Virus record (IMG/VR): IMGVR_UViG_3300034092_002030
Coordinates: 1 to 36,097 of that record
DNA from: a virus
DNA: 36,097 nt
Reading direction: 5' to 3' (one strand)
Part shown: piece by piece, positions 1,504 through 21,950 of the stretch
How the letters are laid out: each line of letters opens with the position of its first letter
Numbering within the stretch: position 1 is the stretch's first letter
Notes under the pieces: model-generated
Seen by the model: the letters and a program-made list of their open reading frames with translations, nothing else
Databases searched by the model: none
Told to the model about the DNA's origin: nothing
Made by a program: the position numbers and the translations under genes

Positions 1504-4500
1504 TTATATTATAGTGTCACCCTTAAAATATATCGTGTTACCACCATTATTAATGTAGAATGCCAAGTCGGCAAATGTTGTATATACCCTATATGTTCCT
1601 GTAGGTATTGTTGTACCTGTATAATTGAACGTATCTGAATAAATGCTACTATCCATAATTAATGTCGTCATTGAATTAGGATTACCATTTATACTGTAAG
1701 CAATTTTTTGTTGTATTCCGTTATTTGTAGCCCCTGTAGGTATAATCCATGTAAACCAAGCAGAACCACCAACTGTGTTAACAGGTACTTCATGAGTTGT
1801 AAAGTTGTAAATAGATATTGCATTACCAAATGAATCAACACCACCTGAAGATTGTGGAACCGTCTGAGTTCTAACAGATGGGAACGTACCACCCGTCCAT
1901 CCTGAGAATGTTATGTATTCATTCATATCAATATTGAACAACGATGGGTTTGTTCCGTTAGGTACAGAACCGTTTGTAAATCCAAAGAATGTAGCACCTA
2001 AATCATACATGTATTGTCCGATATCTGTTGAGCCAGATTGAGGTTCGATAAATAGATACGCAATACCCGTCGACGGTGTACTACTTGGTGTTAATGTCGG
2101 AGTTGGAGTTTGAGTTGCGTTAGGTGTAGGTGTATTCGTAGGTGTTGGTGTCTGTGTAAGACCAGGTGTTGGTGTTTGTGTCGCAGTTACTGTATTTGTA
2201 GGTGTTGGTGTCTGTGTAAGACCAGGTGTTGGTGTAGAAGTTGCCGTTACTGTGTTTGTCGGCGTTAATGTTGGAGTTGGTGTTTGTGTAGGTGTTAATG
2301 TTGGAGTAGGTGTTGCACCAGTTGCACATGTGATGTCATAATCGATATTCAGACCTAAACCAAATACAGTATTTCTTAAAGGGTCTTCATCACCCGTACA
2401 ATCCGACAATAATGAAATTGTATTGTCAACCAAATTAATAGTATACGATTGAATTGGAGATGGTGTTAAACCACTTAATACATTATCAATAGTATCAACC
2501 CAAAGGTTGTCTGATGGATAATCATTTAATGTTGTACCGGTGTAAAATGGTCCTGAATATGTTATACCACTGATTTCAATGTCATAATTAAACACAGCAG
2601 TATTCAAAGTACATGCTGTAGCACCCGTACCTACCAAATCAATATACCCCTCGTTTAACATTTCATACATACCACGTTTTGTTCCGTAGGTTGTAATGAA
2701 CTCTCTCTCACAAATGGTAGCCAACTGATATCCCGAAACGATAGATGCTCCACAAACAATTGTTGTTGTGGTGGTTGCGGAACATCCATTTGAATCCTGA
2801 ACCGTTAAGTTATATGAACCACCTGTTAATCCAGTAATTGTTGTTCCTGTCTGTCCAGAAGGAACATTATTTGACCAATAAAGATTATATGGCGATGCCC
2901 CTTGTAATATTGTTGCGGTTATCTGACCATCATTACCATAAACACAGTTCGTAGGTGTTAATACAAACTGTACCCCTGTCGAACCCGTAATATTAAAGGC
3001 TTCATTAATACTACAACCGTCAGAGTCTGTAACACTTACCGAGTAAGTGCCAATCGACATATTACTAAAGGTAAATGCCGTTGCGGTGGTATCAAGAATC
3101 TGCATTCCGTTACTCACCACATAGTCTAATACCCCTGTGTATCCACTACCAACAGCAACATTTACGGAACCAATACTTTGTCCGCATGTAGCCCCCGTAG
3201 TTGATAATGTTAAATTAAATTTAGGAACCGCGTTAATAACGACAGTTTCGTAATAGGTACAACCGTTAGCTGTGGATACAGCAATTAAGTATGTATCTCC
3301 ACTTAGGCTTGAAAATAGGTAGTTGTTACTATTAGTGGTTGCACTTGATGATACACCACTCGATTGACCTGAATATGAATAGGTATATGGTGGGGCACTA
3401 CCATTGACAGATATGTTAATAAATCCATAACTACCACAAGAATTTAGACCTGAATTTACATTAACAGAGATAAGACCACCCTGACTTATAATCTGATTTG
3501 AACCGAAAACGGTACATAAATTAGCATCCCTAACAAAAAATCCAAAGTCACCAGCAGAAACACCCGTAAATGTAAATGAGTTTGATGATACACCCGATAA
3601 TGACTGACCCGTACTACCCGAATAGTAGAACGGCGCAGTCCCCCCCGATGTAGTAACAGTTACTTGACCATTACTTTGTAAACAACCAGGTTGTATTACG
3701 GTTATAGTATTAACGGCAAAATTTGAAACATTCGGAACAATGGCACTTTTAACAACCACACAATTGTTTGAATCTGTGACCTCAACAGAATATGTGCTAG
3801 CAGAAAGACCCGTAATTGTATCACCCGTTTGTCCGTTAGACCAAAGATATGTGTATGGCGCAACACCTGTCTCACCCGTCACTTGGAGAGCTCCTGCATT
3901 AATACCACAATTGGGATTACCCGAGATTGAGAATCCGTAGTCAAATCCTGTAGACGCGCTAACGGTAATTGTTGCTGTGGTTGCACTCGCACCACCAAAA
4001 TCAACAACCTCAGCATAATAATCGCCCGGACTTAAATTGGTGAACTCATAAGGATTTATAGAGTATGGCCCTTGTGATATCTGTACAGTATCTTGATATA
4101 ATGTTATAGTATATGGTAAAGAACCTGAATCACCACTAACATAGAAACTTCCATTGTCTAACCCACATGTAGTATCTTCAACGTCAACAATTACCGCGTC
4201 CAAACAACCTTCAAGTACAATATTAATATATTGCTCACTGTTAAAACCACCCGAAGAATCGTTTAACCTGAATACATAGGTACCACCGGTTAATCCAGTG
4301 TACTCAACAGTACCTGTAAAACTAACATAACTTGGTAAAGTTCCAGGTATGTCATTATCCAACGTATATGGTGGTACACCACCCAAAGGTGTGAATACTA
4401 TTCTACCACCATTGGGGTCTGCACAAGTTCCAGTTATACTAAAGGAATACGACAACTCATTAATAGGTAGTGTCGGTGTCGGTGTCGGTGTTGTAGTAGG

Positions 4501-6963
4501 AGTGATTGTGTTAGTTGGAGTATTTGTTGGTGTTTTTGTGGGAGTAATTGTGTTAGTTGGAGTATTTGTTGGTGTTTTTGTTAAGGTAGGTGTTACTGTA
4601 GGTGTTTGTGTATTAGTTGGTGTATTAGTTGGTGTCGGAGTTAGACATGGATTTGCACTTGTACAAACAACACAATCAACATATTCTATGAATGAAACAC
4701 CAATTGCAGAATATGTAGGTCCGACACCTGAGTATGGGATTACAGTTGCACAACCTGTAAAGTCTAAAGAACCTGAAATATTATATGCATTCCCCTCAAT
4801 TAAATAACCAGCCACATTCTCAAATCTAAACAAAGAACCATCACAACAACCCGATAACAAATAAATGTCGTATGGTTCAGTTGGAGTAGGTGTTTGAGTG
4901 TTCGTTACAGTTGGGGTAGGAGTTTCTGTAGGCGTATTGGTTGGAGTCTCCGTAATAGTTGGTGTCGGAGTTGGGGTTGGAGTTGGTGAGGAACAACAGT
5001 TATAACTATTAGACCATGATGATGTACCACTAAGTGGCGCATTATCTTGATAAAAAAATATGTCTGTCAATACACCAATTTGACTTGATAATGCACAAAC
5101 AGTATGTGTATATGCCGACGCTACTGAATATTCAACTTGAGTAAGTAAGTTATTACAGTCGGTATAAACTAAATAAACTTTTCCATCTTGTGATGGGTCA
5201 AAAGTATTCCCCGTGGCACTTAATAAATCTCCAGATGTTACAATAACATCTAAGAAGCTACAAACACAAGTTGTTGGAGTAGGTGTAACGGTCGGTGTGA
5301 CTGTTGCGGTTGCAGCAATTGTCGGTGTTAGTGTTGGTGTAACTGTAGGCGTTACAGTCATTGTAGGCGTGGGTGTCGGTGAAGGACATGGGACAATTGT
5401 TTCACATTCATCACAGTCATTAAAAATGTTAAATGATGGTATGAATGTAGTTCCCGCACCCCCCACTTGAACATTTTGTACCTCATAACATGTTCCCGTA
5501 TAGTTTATTACTTGTCCATTAGTTGGTACTGTACATCCAGCACCTTCTATTGTAGTTGTAGTTGCATCACAACAATTAGTTAAATCAGCAGTCCAATTAA
5601 AACATGGATTTTCTACCAAAGTACAATCTGTACAATCAGTATAATAAGTGGTTGCTGACATTATACCTATTTCAGGAGCGACCGCCATAATTTCATAACA
5701 ACAACCCCCCACTTCATACACTAAACCAATCGCAGAATTTGCTAATGGAACACTTAGATTTAATTGAAAAGTATGTGTACAACAATCTTCAACTAACATA
5801 TCAACAAAAACGACAGATTCTGTCGGTGTGATTGTTGGAGTGACTGTTGGAGTAGTGGTTATAGTCGGAGTAACCGTAGGCGTAACCGTAAGTGTAGGTG
5901 TTGGTGTTGGTGATGGGCAAGGATTATCAACAATACATGGGCCACACGCACTTTCACCACCATACCACGTTACAGGTGTTACTGCACTTGCAGGTCCCGG
6001 TACAGTTTGACCATCTATATCATAACATTGTCCGTCACTACCCTCGAATACAGTTCCCGGTAAAAATGAAACTCCTTCACCTATAGAATTACCAGTTAAA
6101 ATTGATATTGTAATTGGTGTACCACCACAACAAGGAGTTGCGGTATAATACCAAACTTCACTGGGATTTGTAGTTGCGGTACAAGTAGCACATGAGACAA
6201 ATGTCGCACCAGACGTAATTACAGCACTGCCAGTAGATGCCGTATATGGTGTAGCACAATCAGGAATTTCTAAACATCCACCGTATTGGGTGGATATAAC
6301 TTGTCCTGGTGGTATACGAGTACCGACAATTTCATAAGTTGTGTACGGACTTCCTAATATATTACCAAAACAATCTGTAGTTGCACTATATACCCATCTT
6401 ATACCAGGTAACAAATTGGATTCATTTACTGAAGTTGATGCCGACCAAGGTATTGCTCCATTACAATCATTTGCAGTAACACTAGAACCCACATATGTAC
6501 TAAAAGATGTGTTACATAACCCATTGTTTACCAATGCTAATTGTACTGCCACATTGGGTAAATAAACCGTACTATTATAAACCACCGAATTGTTAACCAA
6601 AAAGTGCGCAGATGTATCACCAGTTAATATATCACTAGCAGTATAACCTGTTAAAGTTGATTCCCATAAGAATGGCACTAACGGTAACTTATTTGAACAA
6701 CACGCAGTGCTAAATACAACAAAATTTATATTGAATGTATCACTATTAGATAAAGTGTAATCCGCAGCTGATGGTGTTGTTGTTACCGACGTAACATCAA
6801 AATATCTACTACCAAGTTGTAATGTTGTGTAGGTACCACCTGTCCAAAAAGAAAGTGAGGTCGCATCATTGGCACCAACTAAATTATCAGGCCATGCTAG
6901 TGTATAACTATACGCAGTTCCTGATGTACATTTTTCTGTAAGTCCTAAATACCAAATAGCCAT
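1504..6963 (-). CDS. Giant mosaic adhesin with SprB-like repeats and Pro/Thr linkers
   Basis: This 1819-aa protein is probably a virion-attached adhesin or fibre. It starts with ATG overlapping the stop of the gp7-like gene (TAATG). In order it has an N-terminal domain (about 1-190), Cys-rich repeats with CC, CxxC and PCPSPTPTPT motifs (about 195-350, 385-520, 695-770), Pro/Thr linkers between them, and seven SprB-like repeats (about 838-1407). These are followed by a module also found at the C-terminus of the gp7-like protein (about 1448-1545), another Pro/Thr linker, and a C-terminal domain (about 1630-1819). The clearest SprB-type unit contains GVAPYTYLWSNGQTGDTITG and ends YSVEVTDSNNC. 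SprB repeats are known from Flavobacterium gliding adhesins. There is no obvious signal peptide, which fits a phage particle protein. A role in binding the cell surface is inferred from domains and position. Confidence 0.8.
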   Translation of the reverse strand: MAIWYLGLTEKCTSGTAYSYTLAWPDNLVGANDATSLSFWTGGTYTTLQLGSRYFDVTSVTTTPSAADYTLSNSDTFNINFVVFSTACCSNKLPLVPFLWESTLTGYTASDILTGDTSAHFLVNNSVVYNSTVYLPNVAVQLALVNNGLCNTSFSTYVGSSVTANDCNGAIPWSASTSVNESNLLPGIRWVYSATTDCFGNILGSPYTTYEIVGTRIPPGQVISTQYGGCLEIPDCATPYTASTGSAVITSGATFVSCATCTATTNPSEVWYYTATPCCGGTPITISILTGNSIGEGVSFLPGTVFEGSDGQCYDIDGQTVPGPASAVTPVTWYGGESACGPCIVDNPCPSPTPTPTLTVTPTVTPTITTTPTVTPTITPTESVVFVDMLVEDCCTHTFQLNLSVPLANSAIGLVYEVGGCCYEIMAVAPEIGIMSATTYYTDCTDCTLVENPCFNWTADLTNCCDATTTTIEGAGCTVPTNGQVINYTGTCYEVQNVQVGGAGTTFIPSFNIFNDCDECETIVPCPSPTPTPTMTVTPTVTPTLTPTIAATATVTPTVTPTPTTCVCSFLDVIVTSGDLLSATGNTFDPSQDGKVYLVYTDCNNLLTQVEYSVASAYTHTVCALSSQIGVLTDIFFYQDNAPLSGTSSWSNSYNCCSSPTPTPTPTPTITETPTNTPTETPTPTVTNTQTPTPTEPYDIYLLSGCCDGSLFRFENVAGYLIEGNAYNISGSLDFTGCATVIPYSGVGPTYSAIGVSFIEYVDCVVCTSANPCLTPTPTNTPTNTQTPTVTPTLTKTPTNTPTNTITPTKTPTNTPTNTITPTTTPTPTPTLPINELSYSFSITGTCADPNGGRIVFTPLGGVPPYTLDNDIPGTLPSYVSFTGTVEYTGLTGGTYVFRLNDSSGGFNSEQYINIVLEGCLDAVIVDVEDTTCGLDNGSFYVSGDSGSLPYTITLYQDTVQISQGPYSINPYEFTNLSPGDYYAEVVDFGGASATTATITVSASTGFDYGFSISGNPNCGINAGALQVTGETGVAPYTYLWSNGQTGDTITGLSASTYSVEVTDSNNCVVVKSAIVPNVSNFAVNTITVIQPGCLQSNGQVTVTTSGGTAPFYYSGSTGQSLSGVSSNSFTFTGVSAGDFGFFVRDANLCTVFGSNQIISQGGLISVNVNSGLNSCGSYGFINISVNGSAPPYTYSYSGQSSGVSSSATTNSNNYLFSSLSGDTYLIAVSTANGCTYYETVVINAVPKFNLTLSTTGATCGQSIGSVNVAVGSGYTGVLDYVVSNGMQILDTTATAFTFSNMSIGTYSVSVTDSDGCSINEAFNITGSTGVQFVLTPTNCVYGNDGQITATILQGASPYNLYWSNNVPSGQTGTTITGLTGGSYNLTVQDSNGCSATTTTTIVCGASIVSGYQLATICEREFITTYGTKRGMYEMLNEGYIDLVGTGATACTLNTAVFNYDIEISGITYSGPFYTGTTLNDYPSDNLWVDTIDNVLSGLTPSPIQSYTINLVDNTISLLSDCTGDEDPLRNTVFGLGLNIDYDITCATGATPTPTLTPTQTPTPTLTPTNTVTATSTPTPGLTQTPTPTNTVTATQTPTPGLTQTPTPTNTPTPNATQTPTPTLTPSSTPSTGIAYLFIEPQSGSTDIGQYMYDLGATFFGFTNGSVPNGTNPSLFNIDMNEYITFSGWTGGTFPSVRTQTVPQSSGGVDSFGNAISIYNFTTHEVPVNTVGGSAWFTWIIPTGATNNGIQQKIAYSINGNPNSMTTLIMDSSIYSDTFNYTGTTIPTGTYRVYTTFADLAFYINNGGNTIYFKGDTII
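2087..2310 (-). repeat. Pro/Thr linker with 60-bp tandem repeat
   Basis: This encodes a TPTPTNT / TVTATQTPTPG type linker between the shared module and the C-terminal domain of the adhesin. At DNA level a block containing TGTCTGTGTAAGACCAGGTG recurs with a period of 60 bases (around 2150 and 2210). This is a low-complexity flexible or rigid stalk and a likely site for repeat-number variation. Confidence 0.8.
2745..4450 (-). repeat. Seven SprB-like repeats of the adhesin
   Basis: These are protein-level repeats of about 70-85 residues. A typical unit has an early Cys (NxxCG or TxCG), then NG or GS, a G-x-PYxY core, a TGL(S/T)xGxY segment, and VxDSNGC near the end. The units are divergent, with the third and seventh closest to the SprB repeat family (GVAPYTYLWSN; GASPYNLYWSN). 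They form one uninterrupted block flanked by Pro/Thr linkers. Repeat boundaries were judged by eye. Confidence 0.75.
4468..4640 (-). repeat. Pro/Thr linker with 42-bp direct repeat
   Basis: This encodes TPTNTPTNTITPTKTPTNT-type sequence just before the SprB-like block. Two adjacent 42-base copies lie at 4501-4542 and 4543-4584 and differ at only a few positions, consistent with recent tandem duplication. Confidence 0.8.
4880..5000 (-). repeat. Pro/Thr linker in adhesin
   Basis: This encodes CCSSPTPTPTPTPTITETPT and similar sequence up to PTEPYDIY. It separates two Cys-containing domains of the 1819-aa protein. Low-complexity spacer. Confidence 0.75.
5270..5395 (-). repeat. Pro/Thr linker in adhesin
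   Basis: This encodes PCPSPTPTPTMTVTPTVTPT and continues to TPTPTTCVC. The PCPSPTPTPT entry into the linker is the same as in the linker at 5820-5920, which suggests that a Cys-rich domain plus linker unit was duplicated. Confidence 0.75.
5820..5920 (-). repeat. Pro/Thr linker in adhesin
   Basis: This encodes PCPSPTPTPTLTVTPTVTPT and continues to TITPTESV. It is the first Pro/Thr spacer of the adhesin and follows a CGPC motif and a PCPSP junction. Confidence 0.75.
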
Positions 6964-9935
6964 TAACTACAGTATATTGTTATATTAATCCCTACATTTA
7001 ATTGTAGAGTTTTATCAGTAAAGTCTGCCATACATCCCGTGTTACTTACAGTAATTACTCCGTTAGTTATAGAATAGTTCAATCCCCATACATATAAATC
7101 AGAAAAATTAGAATTTAATCCATCAATCCATTGTTGGTCGGTTGGTGCGTCGGTTGCCGTGTATCCTGTAAAGAAAGGTTCTTGAACTAATATGTCGTTG
7201 TCTAATCTTAAATCCGTAAACCAAATAGATGTTACAGAATTTAAATCACATTGGCTTGTAGTAAAACCACTCAAACTAATCAAACTATTAATTTGATTAT
7301 ATAATACTTGTTGGAATGTGGTTCCCGATGTTTCAGATGTGGATTCTGTCCAGGGATATATTCCACACTGTAGTGTTTGGTCAATACAATCATAACCAAA
7401 CAGTTGCCCTTCAACAGTACATGGAATACATGGAATTGGAATAATTTCACAACCACGTTGTCTTCTCCATACAACTTTTTGTCTGTGAAATTGTGAATTT
7501 TCAAACCTTGTACCTGTATTCCATAGTGTGGATGCAGGTATCATTTGTTCCACCAAACGTACCCAATAGTTACCTAAACCTAAAGTAAAATCAATCATTT
7601 TTTGGTAGGTATATTGATTAGAAGGTATGTTTACCGTTTCTTGTGATTGTAGATAGTTCCAATAGATTTGTTGTAAAGTTGGATATCCACCACCTTTACC
7701 ATCCGTAATAGTTTGTCTATTACGAACATTAATCATATTTTTCCAAAATGTTTGTGCAAACTCAAAAAATGTTTTTTGTTTTGGATTTGGCTGAATTATA
7801 GTAGAATCAATACCACCGACACCGGTTGTCAATCCCGTAGCAGGTATTGGGTAATCATATTTTCTACTCATATCCCAAACATCATACTCCAAACCTTGAC
7901 CCATGTTCATAAACAAATCAACGTTTTTAGCATTTAACACCAACTTTTCATTTGACACGAAGTAATAAGCATTAAACCCACCTTGAGTTTTTCTCAAACC
8001 TATTTCATTATCCGTCCATGACTTTTTATTATCAATAGTTTGGGTTAAATCAAAACCCAAAGTCATATATGGGAATTTTCTAAATCTTTCGAAGTATTTT
8101 TGTCCGTAAGTGTATGGTTGTAAGACAGTTTGAACATTAGGGTTTTGACCCGTAAATGTCGATTCGGTTACAATGGTATCTTGTTCAGCCCTGTGTTTTG
8201 GTGTTTGCTCAAACCAACCTGAACCTTTTTCAAAAAAATAATTGTCGTTGTCAATAGGTGCTTTTGGATATCCCTCTATATCAATTGGGTAATCCTCCCT
8301 AATTGGTTCCACATCTTCAATTTCATAATCTATGGTAAATGCTGTGTATATTATACCTTGAATCTTGTATGTATTTTCAGGGTCTAATACCAGTACTTCT
8401 TGACTAAATGTTCCGCCCGTTAACTGAATAAATTGTTCAGTAAATTGCTCCATATTAATTTTTGAATCAGCTAAATAAATTGTCTCATTAAACTCAACAA
8501 GTGCTTGTGGAGCACCTACCATTCTCATTATAAATTCAACAGATTTTCTTGTACCTTTAGACCTAAATAACCAACCAGAATTAATAATTAATTTTCTGTA
8601 ATATTCATAGTTTAACTCACTTGGAGTCAAGTCTCTAGTCAAACCAGTGTATATGGATTGATTTTTAGTTCCAAAAACAGAGCTTAAAAAATCATCATTT
8701 GTTATCGGAGATATATTAACCTGATATCCCAATGTGTAGGCTAAGTTTACCAATAATTGAGACGGAATGTCGTCTTTAGGTATGTAGTTCACTGATGTCA
8801 TATAGGCTAAAGCATCAATGAATTTTTTAGTTTCATCATAAGCCCTACCATATACTTGAATAACTTTTTCAACCCTTTGGTCTTCAGTATCAAACTCTTT
8901 GAAAGAACCTGTTATTAAAAAACGACTTATTAAATTCGTCTTAAAACTATCTAAAGAAACAGCAACCTCATTGACTTCCTCCAAATAAGTGTCAAAAGCC
9001 CTTGTTCTAATATCTAAATTCCAACTACCCTCTAATGGCCACGTAACCGTTTTATTAGCAACATAAGTTTGTCCATTATCGTTTTCTCTTGGATATTTAA
9101 AATAAGCGGTATATTTCGGTGTAACTAATCGGTTCAACAAAAAGTCTTCAACTTCATCAAATGGCTCATCAAACGCAACCTCAACATAAAATTTATTAGG
9201 TCTAAGTATTATCTGTGAAGTTGTTGAACTACTACCCAAAAAAGGATTACCTTCAACAACAACTTGTATTGTACCAGCACTTAAAGATGATGATGGTGTA
9301 AAATCAATAACTTTATATTCTATTTCACCATCACCAGCAACAAACAAAGCGTATTTTAGATACTCTTGTGTGAAATTTCTTAATGGTGAAAATTCAAAAG
9401 GTCTTACCTCTAAGTTTCTATTAGCATTTGTTGAATAATCAATGTCGAATGGGTTTTTTATTCTAGTAACATCAATATCAAAAGTTGTTTCATTTTCAAC
9501 CGCATTGTATGAAATATTATTAGCAGTGTTAGCTGTAGTATAATCATAATAAACTCTATCAACTTCTAACGCCGCTGGAAAATAATTAATAATTTTAATT
9601 ATTGATATCTCTAATCTTTTCGCTAATGAACCGTAAAGAGAAAAGTTTGTTACTACCGATATATCATAATTTGGATATACAGAATACTGTTTTGCCAATA
9701 TCGCCCTTGATTGAGCAATGTCATCAATATTTAAAGTCTCTAATGTAAATGGGTCAGAAAATACACCAATATCAAACTTTCTGTTTACCTTCTCAACAAC
9801 TGAGGTTGTAAACTCAAAGTTAGCCTGTGTCAAACCACCACCATTAACGAGTTGGAATCCAACAATGTCCGGTGAAAATGTTTGGTCACCTGAATTAGGC
9901 GCTGGTGGGTATCTGTATTTTAGAGGACTCGCCAT
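6963..9935 (-). CDS. Baseplate wedge protein, gp7 / tail protein I-like
   Basis: This 990-aa protein is close in length to T4 gp7 (about 1030 aa). Residues about 350-480 resemble tail protein I of P2-type phages: a region containing LLVNLAYTLGYQV is followed by GTRKSVEFIMRMVGAP, the characteristic small helical segment. In contractile tails this protein pairs with gp6/gpJ in the wedge, and gp6 and gp25 are encoded upstream in the same operon. The C-terminal part has a CxxC-containing stretch (CEIIPIPCIPC, about 830) and then a module of about 95 residues (about 895-990) that recurs in the adjacent adhesin. The start ATG overlaps the upstream stop (TAATG), and its own stop overlaps the adhesin ATG in the same way. 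The gp7 assignment is inferred from the motif and context, not from full-length similarity. Confidence 0.65.
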   Translation of the reverse strand: MASPLKYRYPPAPNSGDQTFSPDIVGFQLVNGGGLTQANFEFTTSVVEKVNRKFDIGVFSDPFTLETLNIDDIAQSRAILAKQYSVYPNYDISVVTNFSLYGSLAKRLEISIIKIINYFPAALEVDRVYYDYTTANTANNISYNAVENETTFDIDVTRIKNPFDIDYSTNANRNLEVRPFEFSPLRNFTQEYLKYALFVAGDGEIEYKVIDFTPSSSLSAGTIQVVVEGNPFLGSSSTTSQIILRPNKFYVEVAFDEPFDEVEDFLLNRLVTPKYTAYFKYPRENDNGQTYVANKTVTWPLEGSWNLDIRTRAFDTYLEEVNEVAVSLDSFKTNLISRFLITGSFKEFDTEDQRVEKVIQVYGRAYDETKKFIDALAYMTSVNYIPKDDIPSQLLVNLAYTLGYQVNISPITNDDFLSSVFGTKNQSIYTGLTRDLTPSELNYEYYRKLIINSGWLFRSKGTRKSVEFIMRMVGAPQALVEFNETIYLADSKINMEQFTEQFIQLTGGTFSQEVLVLDPENTYKIQGIIYTAFTIDYEIEDVEPIREDYPIDIEGYPKAPIDNDNYFFEKGSGWFEQTPKHRAEQDTIVTESTFTGQNPNVQTVLQPYTYGQKYFERFRKFPYMTLGFDLTQTIDNKKSWTDNEIGLRKTQGGFNAYYFVSNEKLVLNAKNVDLFMNMGQGLEYDVWDMSRKYDYPIPATGLTTGVGGIDSTIIQPNPKQKTFFEFAQTFWKNMINVRNRQTITDGKGGGYPTLQQIYWNYLQSQETVNIPSNQYTYQKMIDFTLGLGNYWVRLVEQMIPASTLWNTGTRFENSQFHRQKVVWRRQRGCEIIPIPCIPCTVEGQLFGYDCIDQTLQCGIYPWTESTSETSGTTFQQVLYNQINSLISLSGFTTSQCDLNSVTSIWFTDLRLDNDILVQEPFFTGYTATDAPTDQQWIDGLNSNFSDLYVWGLNYSITNGVITVSNTGCMADFTDKTLQLNVGINITIYCS

Positions 9936-11929: not shown

Positions 11930-12732
11930 TATGGGTTAATATATTGATACCATTTTATAGGGTTACCTTGATTGCCAATTCTAGTACCATTATCTGTTGT
12001 TACTAAGTATTCATAGTTTATATAATCTATATCAACTTTGTAATAAAAATACTTTGATTTATCAAAATTAAACTCCGTAGGTAATACACTTTGCGGTGTA
12101 TTCATTAACCTAATAAACTCACCAGTTTTTGCATTAAAAAACTTAGCAGACATAAAAAACCTTGTAGTATTAACATATGTTGGATTTTTTATCCAATACA
12201 CAAAATAACCTTCCTTATCACCAACATAATCCAAAGTAAAAGACGGTTTATTAATGTTAATATTTTGAGTAGTTAGTCCAGTACCTAATAAAGCCCCTTG
12301 TTCATTACCCTGTTGTGTCGGAATAATGATAGTTGCCATAATCTTTTGATTTTCAGTATTTGGTGTGTCGTATAAATCTATCTTAAAGAAACTACGTTGG
12401 AATGCTGCAGAATAATAATATATCTCAGGAACAGTAAATGATGTTCCTGTATAGCTACAAACCCAATCATTTGTTGTTGCTGCAGTTACTTGATAAATTC
12501 CAGGTAAAAAATAAAACTCATAATTGGTCGATGTTAAACCACCACTATATGGGACGTGAGCATATCTTGTAACTTCAAAATCTTCAGTAGGATTTATAAT
12601 TTGCTCCAAAACATCGGCTTCAAATTGGTTCAAACCGTCAGTGCGTCCAGCATTATCCCATGTTAATTCAATAGGAATATTAATTTGATTATCTTTGACT
12701 ATATTTGGTAGTCTAAATTTATTCACATCCAT
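11929..12732 (-). CDS. Unrecognised baseplate-operon protein (267 aa)
   Basis: I do not recognise this family. The frame can be extended one codon to a TTG at 12735, but the ATG at 12732 (MDVNKFRLPNIV) is the more likely start. It overlaps the end of the 574-aa gene by 14 bases, implying translational coupling. The stop overlaps the next ATG (TAATG). The sequence is beta-rich (PIELTWDNAG..., FFKIDLYDTP..., GYFVYWIKNP), without Cys clusters or hydrophobic segments beyond normal core strands. Tail or baseplate structural protein by context. Confidence 0.75.
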   Translation of the reverse strand: MDVNKFRLPNIVKDNQINIPIELTWDNAGRTDGLNQFEADVLEQIINPTEDFEVTRYAHVPYSGGLTSTNYEFYFLPGIYQVTAATTNDWVCSYTGTSFTVPEIYYYSAAFQRSFFKIDLYDTPNTENQKIMATIIIPTQQGNEQGALLGTGLTTQNININKPSFTLDYVGDKEGYFVYWIKNPTYVNTTRFFMSAKFFNAKTGEFIRLMNTPQSVLPTEFNFDKSKYFYYKVDIDYINYEYLVTTDNGTRIGNQGNPIKWYQYINP

Positions 12733-14443
12733 CAATAAATGGGTCTATAATGTATTCGACTAATGGTCTGTTTATGTTTCTATAGAACGAAGTTGGTAAT
12801 TGTAAAAATAATATGTCGGAAAATGGATAATGAGCATCATTCAAAAATGGAGAATCAACACCAACACCATCAGTGTCAATATATCCGTATGGGTATAAAT
12901 CCCTCCACCTCCATTGTCTTTCCGTTTCTGAGTAAAATGCCCAATCAGGTATATTATCCACATCATCTTTAAGACCAACTTCTATATATGTTGAAAAAGC
13001 CCTAATTGGTACCGAAAAATGGGGTTGATAAAAATATCCCGATTCAAAATTAATTGGCGAGTCATTTGTAAATAATAAAGGATTATAACTAAACTTATGA
13101 TTTTGTTTTGACAACACAGTTTCTGTCATTGTAAATTCATTCCACTCACAAAAATCACCAGTTATTATATCACCAACGTTTAATGGTTGATTATAATAAA
13201 AAGTATTCCCTGAAAAATTATAACTCGATGTTTGTAATGCCAAATCTTTATTTGATGGATTTGTATTAGACCACCACGTGTCAATCTTACCATCTAATAA
13301 ATTTAAATCCCAACCCATTAATAAACCAGGATATCCGTTAGCATATGGTTTGTTAAAATAACCCATATAACCTTTTTGGATAATTGTCACAAAAAGTTCC
13401 GATAACGGTCTACCTTGATTATCAATAAGTGTTGTCGTATCAATATCTTTTGTAATACTAAAACCACAAGTTTGACTTCCGTCTTTTACGGAAACTCTTG
13501 ACACACCATTAAATGTTAATGCGGAATATTCTAATTGCTTTTTGTTTGAAAAGGCATTATTTTCGAACCCAAGTTTTGTTAAATCATAATCAGATTCATT
13601 AGTCAAAATCTTGTGTCTCCTTACATAATATTGTGATGTAGTCTCACCTGTGTTATTTATGTCTAAAACACGTTTAAATGTCCCCACAGTACCATCTGTG
13701 AAGTTTGTATAACCTATATTATATATTGAAAATATTTTTTCACTTGAGCCATAATATTGGTCACCCAAAGATTCAACTTGAAAATAATTTTGTCCGATTG
13801 AAGATATTGATAATTTAACAAACTCACCAACTTGTAAGTTGTGTGGCACACCACAATAAAAAGTAATTAAAGATTTACCATCTGGATTTGTATTTTGTAA
13901 TACAAATGGAATCCCGTCACCTGATTGAAAATATGTTGAAGCTGAAAATTGTGTATTTTCATAACTCATAATTTGCTCACTATCACCACTAACGGGGTAC
14001 GACACATAAACATTCCAATTATAAGTTGATGCACTTTTATTAAAGAACGGAATATGTCCAGAAATACCTTGTGTTCTGTAAAATGTAAATTCATCAAATT
14101 GTACATATCCTCTCCAAGCACTTATTTGTGGTGGATTTTGATTCGCATTTATTTGTTTTGCCTCAATACCATTGATATAAAATAAATTATTACCATATGG
14201 CGTGTAAGATGTAAAACCACTAATACCATTATCAAATATATTAACAATTTTACCTGATATTCTAAAAACATTACTTGATTGTCTTTCCTCCTCAAATTGA
14301 CTTTCTTGTGATAAATAAACATTCTTATCACCTTCAATGATTTCTCTACTTTGTTCCTCTAAAGCAATTTGTAAAAGGTAATCCTGTTCAGGAGCACCTT
14401 TAAACCTATCTTGGTTTCTAACTATCTTTACATCAAAACTCAT
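12719..14443 (-). CDS. Unrecognised structural protein (574 aa)
   Basis: I do not recognise this family. It starts MSFDVKIVRNQDRFKGAPEQ, with an ATG that overlaps the stop of the 1686-aa gene (ATGA). A charged, helix-prone N-terminus (about 20-60) is followed by long Tyr-, Asn-, Ser- and Gly-rich beta-type sequence and a Trp- and Tyr-rich end (RQWRWRDLYPYGYIDTDG). Length, composition and place between the 1686-aa protein and the gp7-like wedge gene suggest a baseplate periphery or fibre-attachment protein. Its similarity to T4 gp8, gp9 or gp10 cannot be judged by eye. Confidence 0.75.
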   Translation of the reverse strand: MSFDVKIVRNQDRFKGAPEQDYLLQIALEEQSREIIEGDKNVYLSQESQFEEERQSSNVFRISGKIVNIFDNGISGFTSYTPYGNNLFYINGIEAKQINANQNPPQISAWRGYVQFDEFTFYRTQGISGHIPFFNKSASTYNWNVYVSYPVSGDSEQIMSYENTQFSASTYFQSGDGIPFVLQNTNPDGKSLITFYCGVPHNLQVGEFVKLSISSIGQNYFQVESLGDQYYGSSEKIFSIYNIGYTNFTDGTVGTFKRVLDINNTGETTSQYYVRRHKILTNESDYDLTKLGFENNAFSNKKQLEYSALTFNGVSRVSVKDGSQTCGFSITKDIDTTTLIDNQGRPLSELFVTIIQKGYMGYFNKPYANGYPGLLMGWDLNLLDGKIDTWWSNTNPSNKDLALQTSSYNFSGNTFYYNQPLNVGDIITGDFCEWNEFTMTETVLSKQNHKFSYNPLLFTNDSPINFESGYFYQPHFSVPIRAFSTYIEVGLKDDVDNIPDWAFYSETERQWRWRDLYPYGYIDTDGVGVDSPFLNDAHYPFSDILFLQLPTSFYRNINRPLVEYIIDPFIDGCE

Positions 14444-17400
14444 AATACTTCTTCATTGAATATATATTTGTTTATATACTTATTCATTGCGGATTTACCA
14501 TTTCTTAACCCAAAATAAAAATGGTATGGTGAACCAACACCAATAATTGGTGGTGGCGGTGTTGTTGTTGATTTAGGAGTTATTGTAGGACTGACACCAC
14601 CAGTACTTTGTGAATTGTATATAAATCCTGGTTTTTCAAATGTTGGTACATCAGTCTCAGACGGGAATGTTGGTTGACCTGACGCTATGTTACCACCCAA
14701 TAATCTATCAATAGATTGATACTTGTATGTGTAAATTTGACTCGGTACTGCCTTTTTTACTTCCCAATCGTTTGTCTGTGAACCAAAAATTAAATTACCA
14801 TTATTCTGAATTTGCCAAGGCCAATAAGGGACTTCTTGGTCTTCAAAACCATAATAGTTTGTCAAATATATAATTGTATTGTCTTCAAATGTTGTTCTTC
14901 CCGGTGTAATCAAATCCCTATTTTCGGTATTAGCTGAAAAGAATACTCCTAAAACAGGTCCCTGTCCTGTTGAATAGTATTTAATTTGACTTTGCCCGTA
15001 ATTGTCACCCAAATATGGACTAACACCAAATTCTGAGTTTATACTTAATAATTGTGTTACGTCACCATCTAATCTACTATTTGTTCTTGAGAATAATTGA
15101 GTGATTGACGCATCACCTGATTGTGTTAGTTGTGATAAAAAGTTAGAATCCGTCAATCTACTTATCACAAATAATTGTAATAAATCAGATGTATCATTAT
15201 AAGATGTTGATGGTATTTTATCTATAATAAAACCTTCATAATCAGGATTTAAAGAAATCTCTTGAACAAATTGGTCTCTTGGTCCTAAATCAATCATAGT
15301 AGTCGGACTACCCAAAAGTCTTTTATTCAACGCAGCACTATCGGGGTACGGTGTGTTATCTATTTTTCTTGGTGATTGTTTACCTATGAAAATATTACCA
15401 TTATAAGGTGAGCTTCTGTAGAAAAAAGAATTATTAGTTTCTTTATATACTAAAGTGTCCGTACAATATCTATAAGTAACATCACTATTAAATGTTGAAG
15501 CCGATAGTGGTGCTAGATATAGTGTATCTTTTTGAAATGAATACATATATAAAGAACCATTAATCCAATTGTTTACAAAGGTTAATGAAATTACATTTCT
15601 ACAAAGTGCAAAATTGAATCTGAATCTAGCCTTCCACTCTGAAAATAACAACAAATCTTTTTGAAATTTAAATGGTTCTTGAACCAAGTAATAACAACCG
15701 TCATACATATTCCTAATGTTATCTTCTCTATTGTAGTAGTAACAATCATCATTTAAATTTTTAACACCAATATTCTCTCCGTCACCTGAATAACATTTTA
15801 AAGGAACCATACCTTCACAAGAAAAAGTTTGTTGAATTTTAACACTCAAATTACCTCCAACATCCTCTAAATAATCATCGGCTGGGTCTGAAAAATTATC
15901 GGTACCTGTATTGTAACTGCCCGTTACACCTTGAATTTCACTTGGACTATTAATCGAATAAAGTGAAAAATTTGAATTTTGATGTAAAACAAGTCTGCCA
16001 TCTAACGCGTCTGATGATGGTAAACGGTCAGTTCTCATAACCAAACGATTACTGTTAGACATAGACATTGACCCCGCAGACCCATTTATGTATATCGGAG
16101 AGTAATTTGTAAAGTCATACCCAATTTGAGATGAACCATCTGCAGCCATATACGTTCCACCCTCAACAACTTCGTTGGATAAGTAACCATTTCTGAATCC
16201 ATCTTTAACGTTACCATTATTAATCATTCTGTTCCACGTATTACCACCAGCAGCAATCGCTTGGTTATACCCTGAATTCACAAAACCTTGACCTGAATTT
16301 GCTTGGTTAATGTCCCACGCACTATTTACTTGGTCTAAAGCAGAATAATAAAGATGATTCTTTGTCGTCCACGACGCTAAATAATTTGTTACACTAAAAT
16401 TATATGATGGGTAAAATATATTTTGATTCAAGTTTGTTGAACCGTTATTCACAAATTGGTTGTGTCTCGGTATTCTCCAATCAGTATTACTCTGATATTT
16501 TTGAATAGGAATGTTCAACAAGTAAGAACCCCTCACTTTTTTATTACCGAATGAATTATACCCATAAAGTTTAGACATGTCATATTCGATATCTTGTTTG
16601 TCTGAATTGGGGTCAACACCTCTTGCTAAGAATATAATTTCGTGATTTCTATAGTCTTGTATCAACTGTATATTTGGACCCGTAGTTGACCACCCACTAT
16701 CATCAGGATAAATGTCAGGATTGTTACCACCACCCTTTTTAATTCTTTGGTATCCAAATAAAAATCTTTGTAATAATGTATTGTTTGGACTACCATAACT
16801 TGTTTGTGGTAGTACCGCAGGACTACATATTTGTTGAAACTGTTCAACGGTGTGACCAGTTATTATTTGAAAATATTCAACATCCGAAGGATAAAGATAT
16901 TCTTTAACGTTATTAGTCGAACCTGTTATAACATACGTCGCTGTTTGATTAACACTAACATTACTTGGGTTCATCGAGTTAACAACAATTGATATGTTAC
17001 CAACGGCTGAAGTACCAGTACTTGAAAAATTACCAAACCCATTTTCTATTGTTTGACCTGTTATATTAGGGTCTTTTGAGGCGTTTGGGTTTTGAAAACT
17101 TAAAAGTTGACCCGTCGGTAAATTTTCCATAGTTCCAGGGTCAACTAATAACACTAAAACATTATCATAGTGAAACTGTGAACTATTACTTGGATTTGTA
17201 TAACCAAAAGTAACTTTCATTTGATTATACCCACCGTTATCGTGAAACTTCGCCTTTACATTGAATAGATTCATCCTCTCAGATAGTGGTATATCCCAAG
17301 ACCAATTATTATAATTAGTAAACGGGTTTTGTGCAGAACCCTTTAAATAAGGAGTCCTTAACCCTCTATCCATATTTTGATTGTAGGTTCCGTCGGTTTT

Positions 17401-19500
17401 TCCTGTAAATGGATTTCCTGCCATGGTAGTTTGAAATCCGTAACCAAACTTATTTACCCAATCTTGGTCAACAGCACCGTCATTATCTAAAACACTAACA
17501 CCATTATACATCGTATATTGATTTGTGTTTGCCAAAATAGATGAATTAGAAACTTCGACAGGACCTAATACGTTGTTAATTTTTTTTGGTCCACAGTCAC
17601 ATGCATTACATTCAGGATATGCATAGTTAGGTAACGGTATCGCGTATAATTGTAGATTCTGTAATTGTTTAAAATTTTTAATTACCAAATATGTAACTAA
17701 CCCCCAAGCTATTAATGATAATGAAGCTATAATTATTGCCCCCCAAGCAGCAGTAGAAATACCAACCGCTAATGCTGTGAGGCTAGCGTTAATTTGAAAA
17801 GTAGCAATACCAGCAAAAACGACCGGTAAAACATTTTTTATAAATGGATATAACCCAACAAACGCACTATAAATAAAAGCGATAATAATTAATGGAACTT
17901 GTAAAATTGTGAATAAAATATTGAACACAAAATATATTGCATCAAAATTTCTAACACCATCATTCACAGGGAATTTATTATTTTCACTCTCACAAGTCCT
18001 GTCTAATATTTCTTTTACACCTAAAAATCTTGCACGACCACGACCCTTTCTATATTCTTCAATAAATTGTGATGTAGTATAAACTTTATTAAACTTCATC
18101 TGATAAAAGAAGTCTTCACAATTTATGGCGGCTTGTTTATTTGCATAATCATCCCAATTTAAAGAAAACGCGTAGCTTTTTTGAAACAATTGCCAATTTG
18201 TGTTACCAGTAAAATTTGGGTCGTAGTGTGGACTAGTATCTAATGCGTATAATGCGGGGTCAACACCAGGATTTGCTGTGGTAGTTCCTGTCCATCCATA
18301 TTCCCTAATGTTTGGTACTAAAAAATTACCTCGTTGTATTTCACCCTGTATTGGAAATAATGTAGTACCTTCTCTTGTAGGACCATTTGTCTCTGATTGA
18401 TATTTTATTTTAAACCTATACTTACCATTTGTTGGTATACCAATTCTTGGGTCTTTGGAAAATACTATTTCACCGTATTCGTTTGTTACGACATAATCCA
18501 AATTCATCGGTACATCAACTAAAAACGTACCATCGTCATCGATAACTTTACCACTATTTTGTAATCTATATTGCTCAAGAATAGGATTACCATCCACATC
18601 AGTATTAACGGTTTGTCTAATTGCTAAAATCTCACCCGGACCTGTTATCATACCACACAAGTCACCTTGTTCTGTTTTTGGCTTACAATTTTTCTTTAAC
18701 ATTTGAGTATCCTGTGAGCTCATAATTGAACCCATGAATATTGCTGTTGGTTGTATATCAACACCCAACTCTCTAAGGTCAAAATCGGCTCTGGTAATTC
18801 CTATACTACATTGAGACCCGTCTCCCCAAAATGATGAAACATCAATATCTTTTTTTGCATTAATAATTTGTGGTAAAGAATCTAAATCTGTGGATGCCAA
18901 AAATTGAGTTCCATTGACCTCTTCAGAAGTCGCCAATCCCATCCTAACTAAGTCTTGAGGTCTAAGTGAAAATTCACCCATATTTGATAGGTCTAAATCC
19001 ATTGTAAGTGTCTGTATACCTAATGGCACACCCACAATCATAAAATCACCCGATTCGTTAGTTTTTACGGTATACTTATAATATTTTTCATAAATTTCTA
19101 ATACCTCTTGTCTTGTTAGTAAATCTTCTCTGTTTGGGAAAGTACCCGTAGGTGTGTGTCCACCATATTCTTGGTCATAAGGTAATAAATTATATCGGTA
19201 CCCATCTTCATTTTTCTCTGCGGGGCTTTTATATGGATAAAGTGAGGATATAATTGGATTCAATAAATCAACATCTTCAACAGGAACAAAAACAGAAATT
19301 CTTGCATTTGGTACTCCATACCCCCCATTTGCTACGACACGACCAACAACCACACCATAGTCCGCACAGAAACGAGTATAAGCATCTCCTTGAGTTAATT
19401 TCATGGATAATATTTCCAAGAAATCGAAATCCTGTTCAACATTTAATCTGATTGTTTGGTCAACACCTAATTGTGTACGTAGACGATATGATTTGGGCAT
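14440..19500 (-). CDS. Very large baseplate-operon protein with membrane-like segments (1686 aa)
   Basis: The function is unknown. Residues about 48-185 resemble a carboxypeptidase-regulatory or transthyretin-like Ig fold (VGRVVANGGYGVPNARISVF... and SGDFMIVGVPLGIQTLT). At about 515-605 there are three long hydrophobic stretches (FNILFTILQVPLIIIAFIYS, NVLPVVFAGIATF..., WGAIIIASLSLIAWGLVTYL). Then comes a Cys-rich CNACDCG motif at about 631-637, with more paired Cys later (GCYYLV, CYYYN). The rest is long, Asn-, Tyr- and Ser-rich beta-type sequence, ending in a Pro/Thr patch and a basic tail. It follows gp6 after 71 bases holding a palindrome, and its stop overlaps the next ATG. Its place suggests a baseplate component. 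The membrane-like segments suggest insertion into a membrane during infection or a buried hydrophobic trimer core; neither is shown. Confidence 0.75.
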   Translation of the reverse strand: MPKSYRLRTQLGVDQTIRLNVEQDFDFLEILSMKLTQGDAYTRFCADYGVVVGRVVANGGYGVPNARISVFVPVEDVDLLNPIISSLYPYKSPAEKNEDGYRYNLLPYDQEYGGHTPTGTFPNREDLLTRQEVLEIYEKYYKYTVKTNESGDFMIVGVPLGIQTLTMDLDLSNMGEFSLRPQDLVRMGLATSEEVNGTQFLASTDLDSLPQIINAKKDIDVSSFWGDGSQCSIGITRADFDLRELGVDIQPTAIFMGSIMSSQDTQMLKKNCKPKTEQGDLCGMITGPGEILAIRQTVNTDVDGNPILEQYRLQNSGKVIDDDGTFLVDVPMNLDYVVTNEYGEIVFSKDPRIGIPTNGKYRFKIKYQSETNGPTREGTTLFPIQGEIQRGNFLVPNIREYGWTGTTTANPGVDPALYALDTSPHYDPNFTGNTNWQLFQKSYAFSLNWDDYANKQAAINCEDFFYQMKFNKVYTTSQFIEEYRKGRGRARFLGVKEILDRTCESENNKFPVNDGVRNFDAIYFVFNILFTILQVPLIIIAFIYSAFVGLYPFIKNVLPVVFAGIATFQINASLTALAVGISTAAWGAIIIASLSLIAWGLVTYLVIKNFKQLQNLQLYAIPLPNYAYPECNACDCGPKKINNVLGPVEVSNSSILANTNQYTMYNGVSVLDNDGAVDQDWVNKFGYGFQTTMAGNPFTGKTDGTYNQNMDRGLRTPYLKGSAQNPFTNYNNWSWDIPLSERMNLFNVKAKFHDNGGYNQMKVTFGYTNPSNSSQFHYDNVLVLLVDPGTMENLPTGQLLSFQNPNASKDPNITGQTIENGFGNFSSTGTSAVGNISIVVNSMNPSNVSVNQTATYVITGSTNNVKEYLYPSDVEYFQIITGHTVEQFQQICSPAVLPQTSYGSPNNTLLQRFLFGYQRIKKGGGNNPDIYPDDSGWSTTGPNIQLIQDYRNHEIIFLARGVDPNSDKQDIEYDMSKLYGYNSFGNKKVRGSYLLNIPIQKYQSNTDWRIPRHNQFVNNGSTNLNQNIFYPSYNFSVTNYLASWTTKNHLYYSALDQVNSAWDINQANSGQGFVNSGYNQAIAAGGNTWNRMINNGNVKDGFRNGYLSNEVVEGGTYMAADGSSQIGYDFTNYSPIYINGSAGSMSMSNSNRLVMRTDRLPSSDALDGRLVLHQNSNFSLYSINSPSEIQGVTGSYNTGTDNFSDPADDYLEDVGGNLSVKIQQTFSCEGMVPLKCYSGDGENIGVKNLNDDCYYYNREDNIRNMYDGCYYLVQEPFKFQKDLLLFSEWKARFRFNFALCRNVISLTFVNNWINGSLYMYSFQKDTLYLAPLSASTFNSDVTYRYCTDTLVYKETNNSFFYRSSPYNGNIFIGKQSPRKIDNTPYPDSAALNKRLLGSPTTMIDLGPRDQFVQEISLNPDYEGFIIDKIPSTSYNDTSDLLQLFVISRLTDSNFLSQLTQSGDASITQLFSRTNSRLDGDVTQLLSINSEFGVSPYLGDNYGQSQIKYYSTGQGPVLGVFFSANTENRDLITPGRTTFEDNTIIYLTNYYGFEDQEVPYWPWQIQNNGNLIFGSQTNDWEVKKAVPSQIYTYKYQSIDRLLGGNIASGQPTFPSETDVPTFEKPGFIYNSQSTGGVSPTITPKSTTTPPPPIIGVGSPYHFYFGLRNGKSAMNKYINKYIFNEEVL

Positions 19501-19571: not shown

Positions 19572-21410
19572 TTAAGAGAAATCAACCGTTTTTAAGTTCT
19601 TAACCCTTACTTTAATATCTTTATTTGGGAACCTAACTTGGTAAATTTGTGAAGGTTCAGCAAATACCGTATCATCAATTAATAAAATTTCTTTTGTTGC
19701 ACTATTAACATATCTTTGTGAAGTTTCTGAGGATGAATACTGACCACCAACTTTATTATATACTTTAAGGTCTGTAATAGAAATCACACCAGGAACATCT
19801 TGTACCTGACTTCGTAATTCGGATATATAAACATTACCACCCATTTCTCTAAAAACGGGACTCATTATTGTTTGCACTTTATCAATAACTCTAGTAATAA
19901 CTTCTCCCTGATTTTGAGCACCATCTATCACAACAGATATGTCAAATTCTAAATCAACAACTTGAGCAACATTGATTGATATATAATCATTAATCATCCT
20001 ATAATTTGATAGATAATTTGCCAAATTTGTTTTTAAAGTATTTGACACTGATTGTGTCAAACTACCAGTTGAATCATAAGAAACAATATTAATATTAATT
20101 TTGTTATCTTCTTCAGTAATTGCTACTTTGGCAGGTGCACCAAATTTACCTGGCATTTTTCTAATTAATGCATAATAATCATTAACTGTTACGGCTCTGT
20201 TTTGTGATGCAAAGTTAAATGTTACCATGTTTCTAACTTCTTCTATGTTTGGTTGATTTGCACCACCAATAGCTGCAGTCACGTTATTAACTCTTAACGA
20301 ATTAACAACCTGTTGATTAATATTTGCTGAAGGCCCATTAACAAAAAAGTTAACAGTACCAACTTGGTTAATAGAATTAACACCAATATTTGAAACGGTT
20401 CCACCACCAATTCTATATTGGACAAACAGTGTCGTATTAGCCTTTACCGTCTTACCTAGCCCAATATTATTTTGGTAATCTTGAACTCTTAATGGTACAC
20501 CAACTCTTGAAAATTGAGCTAATTGTTCGTCAGCAGTAACTGTTGCATTACCAAACTGAACTCTTAAGAATCCTTCAGGAGTATATTCTGTTATAAATCT
20601 TAATTCCGTTTCAATGTATCTACCAACTTTAATACCGGGTCTGTCTGCCGGTTTTGTTGGGTCTTCAATAAACACACTACTCTCAGCCAAAGAATCAACC
20701 TCGAACCATCTATCAGGTGAACTTAAAAATTCAGATGATGTTGGTACTGATTGATATGATGTTCCATCTTTTTGAATTACTGACGTAACACCGATAATAT
20801 TTTTTTCAGGTAAGAAAAACTCAAAGAATGGTTTTACATCTGCAGGTGTAATTATTTTTTTGAATACCTTAGTAATACCATTAACAACAACCTCCCTTTT
20901 AGTGATTGTGTAGTTTAATAGTTTACCATTGGAATCAAAATTAGGTATTTTAGTCTGATTCGGAAATCCTTCACTATTATATTGTGAAGAGAAATCAATA
21001 TCATATACATTCTCAAATGTTTGTCCTGCACCAACCACTTGTGAACCCGCTCTTAATATTCCTAAATAACGAGTATCTTCTTGGTCACCAAAGGCAGGTA
21101 CCGTAATTGAAAAATCACAAAGTGATACTGAAGGTCTATTACCGGGTATTTTTAATCCGTAAGTTCTGGCTATGTTAAAAATTGATGAACGTTGTTGAGC
21201 ATATTGAAGAACAGTTTCTTGAATACTCCTATCCATGTGATAATGTAAATTATCACCGATAGCTGCGTTTAAATCTAAAAATACAGAATATACCGACGCA
21301 TCATTAAAATTATCAATTAATTCAGGATAATACTCCTGAGTGTAGTTAATAAGGTCTTGACGTAACGCCTCAAAATCCCTATCTGCGTATGAAATTCTTC
21401 TTTGTGCCAT
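19572..21410 (-). CDS. 6: Baseplate wedge protein gp6 (baseplate J-like)
   Basis: This 612-aa protein is close to T4 gp6 (660 aa). The N-terminus (SYADRDFEALRQDLINYTQE...) and the stretch DNFNDASVYSVFLDLNAAIGDNLHYH match the opening of gp6/gpJ wedge proteins. The central gpJ-type segment is also present (VTFNFASQNRAVTVNDYYAL, IRKMPGKFGAPAKV). gp6 dimers form the inner ring of the contractile-tail baseplate and hold gp7 and gp53-like partners. The gene begins five bases after the gp25 stop, which is the usual pairing of these two genes. It probably shares the late transcript of the whole left operon. Confidence 0.88.
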   Translation of the reverse strand: MAQRRISYADRDFEALRQDLINYTQEYYPELIDNFNDASVYSVFLDLNAAIGDNLHYHMDRSIQETVLQYAQQRSSIFNIARTYGLKIPGNRPSVSLCDFSITVPAFGDQEDTRYLGILRAGSQVVGAGQTFENVYDIDFSSQYNSEGFPNQTKIPNFDSNGKLLNYTITKREVVVNGITKVFKKIITPADVKPFFEFFLPEKNIIGVTSVIQKDGTSYQSVPTSSEFLSSPDRWFEVDSLAESSVFIEDPTKPADRPGIKVGRYIETELRFITEYTPEGFLRVQFGNATVTADEQLAQFSRVGVPLRVQDYQNNIGLGKTVKANTTLFVQYRIGGGTVSNIGVNSINQVGTVNFFVNGPSANINQQVVNSLRVNNVTAAIGGANQPNIEEVRNMVTFNFASQNRAVTVNDYYALIRKMPGKFGAPAKVAITEEDNKININIVSYDSTGSLTQSVSNTLKTNLANYLSNYRMINDYISINVAQVVDLEFDISVVIDGAQNQGEVITRVIDKVQTIMSPVFREMGGNVYISELRSQVQDVPGVISITDLKVYNKVGGQYSSSETSQRYVNSATKEILLIDDTVFAEPSQIYQVRFPNKDIKVRVKNLKTVDFS

Positions 21411-21415
21411 TTATA

Positions 21416-21880
21416 TTAAATATTGATAATAACAAAATCCTTATTGTTGAAGGTGCTATCTGTTATAGTATAGTCGATTCTTATTTTTGCTGTATAGTCC
21501 GCAACACCTGTACCGGGTACTCTGTAAATACCACCAACACCAATGTTTTCCATATTAATATTACCAACTAATTCAAGTTCATCAGTATATGGCGTTATAG
21601 TAATATCATTTAAAACTAAATTTGGTAAAAATTCATCAACCGATTGTCTTATATCTGCCTTGATAGCTTCAAACGATAAACCATCCATCGGTTCAAAAAT
21701 AAATTCATAAATTCTTGTACCAAAATTTGGTAAATAATATCTACTACCCTTTCTCGTAAGAATAAGGTGTAACAAATCTGTTCGTATTTCCTCTTCAGGT
21801 GTTTGTGATAATGATAGATACTTTCCGTCCTGACTCTGTCTGAAAGGAAAATTAATACCATATGTTTTACCATCTGCCAT
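21416..21880 (-). CDS. 25: Baseplate wedge protein gp25 (GPW/gp25 family)
   Basis: gp25 is the small wedge protein that links the baseplate to the sheath. Residues about 25-75 of the chosen form carry the family signature: EEEIRTDLLHLILTRKGSRY, then LPNFGTRIYEFIFEP and a helix (IKADIRQSVDEFL). I chose ATG 21880 (MADGKTYGINFPF, 154 aa). A longer frame starts with TTG at 21919 and would begin inside the terminator, so it is unlikely. T4 gp25 is 132 aa. The gene is first in the baseplate operon, directly behind the nrdA terminator, so it needs its own promoter. A TATTTAT element lies five bases before the ATG. Confidence 0.9.
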   Translation of the reverse strand: MADGKTYGINFPFRQSQDGKYLSLSQTPEEEIRTDLLHLILTRKGSRYYLPNFGTRIYEFIFEPMDGLSFEAIKADIRQSVDEFLPNLVLNDITITPYTDELELVGNINMENIGVGGIYRVPGTGVADYTAKIRIDYTITDSTFNNKDFVIINI

Positions 21881-21885
21881 ATTAC

Positions 21886-21892
21886 ATAAATA
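21886..21892 (-). promoter_or_regulatory. TATTTAT element upstream of gp25
   Basis: The minus strand reads GGAATATATTTATGTAATATGG just after the nrdA terminator. Because that terminator should end upstream transcription, a promoter for the baseplate operon is expected in this short gap, and this is the best candidate. If it works as a -10 element, the transcript would be nearly leaderless. Confidence 0.3.
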
Positions 21893-21917
21893 TATTCCTA
21901 TTATTTTTTTTGAAAAC

Positions 21918-21950
21918 AAAAAAACCCGACAAAATACTTGCCGGGTTTTT
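21918..21950 (-). terminator. Rho-independent terminator after nrdA
   Basis: On the minus strand AAAAACCCGGCAA pairs with TTGTCGGGTTTTT around a 5-base loop, a 13-bp stem with one G-U pair, and continues into a T tract. The G-U pair becomes a C-A mismatch on the other strand, so the hairpin is oriented for minus-strand transcription. It closes the replication/RNR transcript just before gp25. Confidence 0.85.

Follow-up and report, generated by a model that had tools for sequence, protein, structure and literature searches.

Why would a virus encode a protein built around repeats like those of a Bacteroidota gliding adhesin? The question is raised by a window of 36,097 nucleotides (the whole stretch of DNA analysed, IMG/VR record IMGVR_UViG_3300034092_002030), in which a 1819-aa ORF had been read, from its letters alone, as a phage adhesin carrying seven repeats like those of SprB, a 669-kDa gliding adhesin (PMC7807042). 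Our analysis points, with a probability of roughly 0.6, to an ancient phage module serving as a rigid stalk in a tail adhesin or tail fibre near the baseplate of large contractile-tailed phages, which probably infect Bacteroidota.

The features of the locus are collected in Table 1. We use the term cassette for the seven repeats (R1 to R7) together with the phage-only terminal domain of about 140 aa, the cap domain. The repeat block, residues 838-1407, corresponds to window positions 2743-4452 on the minus strand, at most two bases from the 2745-4450 at which it was first placed, and the count of seven was right, in that an alignment of 39 non-redundant cassettes gives seven units of 72-85 aa. 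The window protein is a fused form; in several relatives its last 185 aa are found at the end of a gene of their own. The numbers of TPTPT linkers and Cys-rich modules (window 4453-5916 and 2062-2322) differ widely among relatives, and gene fusion or fission is seen near the TPTPT linkers.

Table 1. Features of the adhesin gene and its neighbourhood, in window coordinates; for R1 to R7, bits are best-domain scores on the profile of Bacteroidota repeats, and percentages refer to the 39 non-redundant cassettes.
Feature	Position	Strand	Basis
1819-aa tail adhesin/fibre protein (putative), carries cassette	1504..6963	-	ORF; Pfam SprB; PHROG Hoc-like matches
Variable N-terminal region (aa 1-349)	5917..6963	-	homologues in two relatives share a stretch at 25-29% identity
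Cys-rich modules with TPTPT linkers between (aa 350-837)	4453..5916	-	sequence; missing from stand-alone relatives
R1 (aa 838-922)	4198..4452	-	22 bits, on a par with generic Ig
R2 (aa 923-1007), divergent, one conserved Cys only	3943..4197	-	28 bits
R3 (aa 1008-1079), canonical SprB repeat	3727..3942	-	75 bits; Cys pair 100%
R4 (aa 1080-1163)	3475..3726	-	50 bits; Cys pair 100%
R5 (aa 1164-1246)	3226..3474	-	32.5 bits; Cys pair 100%
R6 (aa 1247-1328)	2980..3225	-	43 bits; Cys pair 100%
R7 (aa 1329-1407), near-canonical SprB repeat	2743..2979	-	65 bits; Cys pair 87%
Phage-only alpha/beta cap domain, ~140 aa (aa 1408-1547), always after R7	2323..2742	-	cassette alignment
TPTPT linker (aa 1548-1634)	2062..2322	-	sequence
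C-terminal domain (aa 1635-1819)	1504..2061	-	ends separate gene in relatives G001, G006, G026, G037
990-aa protein, no known function, directly before cassette gene	6963..9935	-	adjacent in 77/77 relatives
Collagen-like tail fibre gene, cut by contig end	2..1477	-	Pfam Collagen 8e-34; PHROG tail fibre
Baseplate wedge genes: gp6-like 19572-21410, gp25 21416-21919	19572..21919	-	domain matches

Are the repeats really of the SprB family? The Pfam model PF13573 matched the whole 1819-aa protein at E 1e-7 and 31.9 bits, above its gathering score of 28, and a translated SprB search gave four separate matches in this protein and none in 14 control genomes. However, the same Pfam model also fires on a neck-whisker protein of a Klebsiella phage with 39.6 bits (L291:1641-2642) and is therefore not enough on its own to rule out a generic Ig domain. 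It could accordingly be argued that the block consists of the Ig-like decoration or whisker domains common to phages (T5 pb10, neck whiskers), which merely resemble SprB repeats, and the weak matches of the cassette profile to phage decoration and whisker structures agree with this. We therefore scored the repeats on a profile made from the repeats of Bacteroidota proteins found in a genome scan; as these were collected with a profile of phage R3 and R7, the comparison is tilted toward those two repeats. On this profile the whisker Ig domains reached at most 25 bits, T4 Hoc 2 and shuffled repeats at most 13, whereas R3 to R7 reached 32-75 bits, which places them nearer to the SprB repeats of Bacteroidota than to Ig domains in general; R1 and R2 do little better than the whisker domains and would, by themselves, be taken for generic Ig-like units. 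In addition, a crude test finds the Cys pair that R3 to R6 keep in all 39 cassettes in 95% of the 1663 bacterial repeats. We regard the generic origin as quite unlikely for the block, and the claim of SprB-like repeats at these residues holds. The motifs quoted for them (PYxYxWSNG, TGLxxGxY and VxDSNGC) apply less evenly: the PYxYxWSNG / GTYxVxVTDxxGC core of the tandem units, each about 75 aa long, is complete in R3 and nearly so in R7, degenerate in R4 to R6 and weak in R1 and R2. A gene taken as T5 pb10 for the Ig control turned out to encode a head completion protein, which made that control void.

The single odd protein of the sequence-only reading is part of a clade-wide system. A scan of IMG/VR for relatives of the baseplate gave 533, and in 11 of the 43 records searched for SprB there were matches, each in the gene following the 990-aa neighbour. 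Every baseplate relative with a contig long enough to include the site carries them (11/11); seven further records that we inspected stop ahead of that gene or shortly after its start, and none is therefore a clear absence. A search with a cassette alignment found 340 viral relatives, the best 80 of which supplied 77 full cassettes in addition to that of the window, and 39 of these are non-redundant (<85% identity), with a mean identity of about 41% and a minimum of 32%. Each of the 77 cassette ORFs abuts or slightly overlaps a homologue of the 990-aa gene on the same strand. In 39 ORFs no more than 40 aa precede the cassette, and half of the copies nearly stand alone, from about 710 aa in length, while the rest are fused to TPTPT-linker modules in ORFs of up to 3009 aa. 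Repeat number and order are unchanged across the 39 non-redundant cassettes. The cap domain was found in 78 phage ORFs (among the best 80 of the 340 relatives, with the window) versus none of 93 bacterial ORFs.

How old is this arrangement? The best bacterial matches of the repeats are, with two exceptions, Bacteroidota by title, and R3 and R7 lie nearest to bacterial repeats in a 104-row tree. Both observations are what would be expected if a fragment of a host SprB gene had recently been captured, for mimicry of or competition with the host adhesin, as the sequence-only reading had allowed. Against this, the repeats group by position across phages that share only about 41% mean identity. With position profiles made from half of the phages, 139 of 140 held-out repeats were placed at their own position; R1 to R4 each form a single group in the 104-row tree, as do R1 to R6 in a second sample, in which a single clade of all phage repeats was not rejected (AU p 0.67), although deep branching and the direction of transfer are beyond the reach of such trees, with their roughly 80 columns. 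The phage repeats are not nested among host repeats in the way expected of recent copies, and the phage-only domain is always fused to them. A recent capture is therefore highly improbable, and the block is, judging from these comparisons, an old and stable phage module rather than a fresh host theft. The phage and Bacteroidota repeats may well share an ancient origin, with transfer in either direction. One SprB-type match lies in a metagenome-assembled genome titled Rickettsiales (L155), which is possibly mis-binned.

Structure prediction was in agreement with an Ig-type string. AlphaFold2, run on the cassette alignment, gave a string of beta-sandwiches followed by an alpha/beta domain (pLDDT 77.6), with a pTM of 0.31, so low that the model does not give the overall shape. 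The best PDB matches of the cassette model were fragments of Aureispira grappling hook protein A, GhpA (E 4.6e-19), followed by many other Ig-string proteins, and this match therefore supports the type of fold and not a function; multi-Ig Foldseek matches are permissive. GhpA (PDB 9fly, 9flp) also weakly matches the SprB-repeat profile in sequence, but it is a huge host protein (a chain of 5898 aa) with 15-18% identity and a long-range shape that is not comparable. Modelled alone (pLDDT 76.1), the cap domain had no PDB fold match below E 0.01 and a single significant viral match, to a 714-aa protein of an uncultured Caudovirales phage named 'SprB repeat' (A0A6J5LD72; E 1.6e-12, 30% identity). 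A stand-alone cassette would have about this length, but 'SprB repeat' is a database name only, and we found no description of its array or clade.

Where would such a protein act? The adhesin gene lies in a single operon, with baseplate genes on one side and a collagen-like tail fibre gene on the other, and those neighbours to which a function could be assigned are all phage genes (gp25, gp6-like baseplate wedge, helicase, recombinase, ssDNA-binding protein and ribonucleotide reductase). By a crude hydropathy test, neither the window protein nor its relatives have a signal-peptide-like N-terminus, and Pfam and NCBIfam scans found no T9SS domain in the window protein; the signal peptide and T9SS sorting signal that mark a whole SprB adhesin are thus both missing from it. 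The description as a phage adhesin can accordingly be narrowed to a probable component of a tail adhesin or fibre, its place at the tail of the virion being suggested by synteny and by the missing signal peptide. A protein that the infected cell exports, perhaps as a coat on the host surface, has a precedent in a 642-kb uncultured phage record, the SprB protein of which starts like a signal peptide and has a T9SS sorting domain, but the N-termini and the baseplate/tail-fibre operon found here make this a most improbable explanation for the window protein. The protein of that record (LR756502.1, L107:5589-10598) has 1669 aa, 14 SprB stretches and a T9SS type B sorting domain, and is a secreted protein of host type. 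Two large proteins of the window, of 1637 aa (31145-36058) and 1686 aa (14440-19500), have no Pfam match, and the latter is conserved beside the baseplate gene across relatives.

The repeats, the cassette, its fixed order, the synteny and the phage-only cap are observed, whereas we infer the location on the virion, the stalk role, the host and any binding. In the model that we favour, the seven SprB-family Ig-like domains, most of them with a conserved and probably disulphide-bonded Cys pair, and the phage-specific domain of about 140 aa behind them would form a stiff stalk that holds specificity modules outward, possibly making weak surface contacts as well. Host specificity would more likely be set by the fast-changing surroundings, namely the TPTPT-linked Cys modules, the C-terminal domain and the collagen-like fibre. 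In the stand-alone forms, one end would anchor the protein and the other reach out, and either end could serve for either. The closest relative with the whole locus is consistent with this model, in that its cassette is 76% identical to that of the window, its flanking modules 43-45% and most neighbouring proteins 84-96% (the 1686-aa protein, 65%). Because the cassette thus changes more slowly than its flanks and faster than most core genes, an exposed stalk fits better than a specificity-setting tip.

It is also conceivable that receptor or glycan binding falls to the repeats themselves, which would then stick to the same polysaccharides or surfaces as the host adhesins. Their kinship to Bacteroidota surface proteins would speak for this, as would the conservation of R3, the most conserved repeat at 53% mean identity, and the reported adhesion to epithelial layers mediated by Ig-like domain proteins of other phages (PMC13370021). 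The fixed number and order of the repeats and their slower change than the flanks, however, fit a scaffold better than a determinant of specificity, no carbohydrate-binding family was found, and our literature search found no report of SprB repeats themselves binding glycans. We consider this reading unlikely.

Which hosts would phages with such a stalk infect? Shine-Dalgarno (SD) sequences are lacking in Bacteroidota (PMC6847099). SD-like sites precede 0 of 16 genes in the window, 0-1% in the clade (n 265 and 114) and 3% in Bacteroidota loci, compared with 4% in immuto, 12% in Mel-JY01, 19% in S-PM2, 33% in HTVC008M and 71% in T5, a set that includes a cyanophage and a Pelagibacter phage (19-33%). 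A cassette-bearing contig of 140 kb (G045) encodes, among phage genes, a 621-aa protein with a signal-peptide-like start (L298:6605-8470, minus strand) and a T9SS type A C-terminus that is sub-threshold at 20.8 bits (cut-off 23). By baseplate protein, the nearest isolates are the Microcystis phage Mel-JY01 and the Flavobacterium phages immuto, at about 26-28% identity. The scarcity of SD-like sites, the T9SS-like secreted protein of a relative and the presence of Flavobacterium phages among the nearest isolates together suggest that the hosts of the clade are probably Bacteroidota. Further searches gave no signal: the Bacteroidota promoter motif TAnnTTTG shows no excess in the window (60 versus 58 expected), the major paralogous domain (PF09603) was not found in 22 cassette-bearing records, and the 301-aa neighbour, which has no known function, had no match in the phage collection or, in a search made uninformative by the lack of a positive control, in 395 Bacteroidota genomes. 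Ribonucleotide reductase was uninformative as a host pointer, with best matches in Sporosarcina and Staphylococcus phages. The cassette is absent from the Mel-JY01 and immuto regions and from every record of the phage collection. In Mel-JY01 (L129), positions 12044-12685 are annotated as 'major paralogous domain', which we take to be a domain of Fibrobacter/Bacteroidota type; the stated cyanobacterial host of this phage may be questionable.

A close parallel in evolution is provided by the BACON arrays of crAssphage, as described in part of the published account (PMC6949934): a tandem Bacteroidota-associated domain in a tail-associated phage protein, in which each array position forms its own clade and one repeat lies near bacterial ones. 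The assignment of held-out repeats and the single groups of R1 to R4 or R1 to R6 reveal the same fixed array here. The two differ in that BACON is not of the SprB family, crAss-like gut phages are set against large contractile-tailed phages, and that part of the account describes no phage-only cap domain of this type. With SprB of Flavobacterium johnsoniae and other Bacteroidota SprB-repeat proteins, the phage array shares the repeat family, the spacing of about 75 aa and the Cys pair. Those proteins, however, are mostly large, with up to 49 mostly canonical repeats, whereas the phage array is limited to exactly seven divergent repeats, with R3 and R7 alone close to the canonical form, lacks a signal peptide and carries the phage-only cap. 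Phage Hoc, pb10 and neck whiskers place Ig-like beta-sandwiches on virions, as the window protein probably does, and are remote profile matches, but they occupy other gene positions and have lower SprB-repeat scores, T4 Hoc giving no match. In the full-text literature on SprB repeats and phages, outside which most subscription papers lie, we found no such array described.

Seven repeats and a cap directly after the 990-aa gene should serve as a diagnostic module for a widespread uncultured phage clade and indicate its likely host phylum. They would represent a second case, after crAssphage BACON, of a Bacteroidota-associated domain turned into a fixed tail array. Gliding proteins have been proposed as phage receptors in Flavobacterium (PMC7345892); any link to the window protein would be hypothetical. 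In phages of gliding bacteria, in which such proteins are suspected receptors, it can now be tested whether Ig-like arrays act only as stalks or make the first contact as adhesins. We speculate, as a possible and tentative extension, that a major group of large Bacteroidota phages has long used SprB-type repeats as a building block of the virion, and that this domain was exchanged or co-evolved with host adhesins in either direction, including from phage to host. In several cassette phages, a further downstream gene contains one or two SprB-like stretches (L209:17053-18120 and similar loci).
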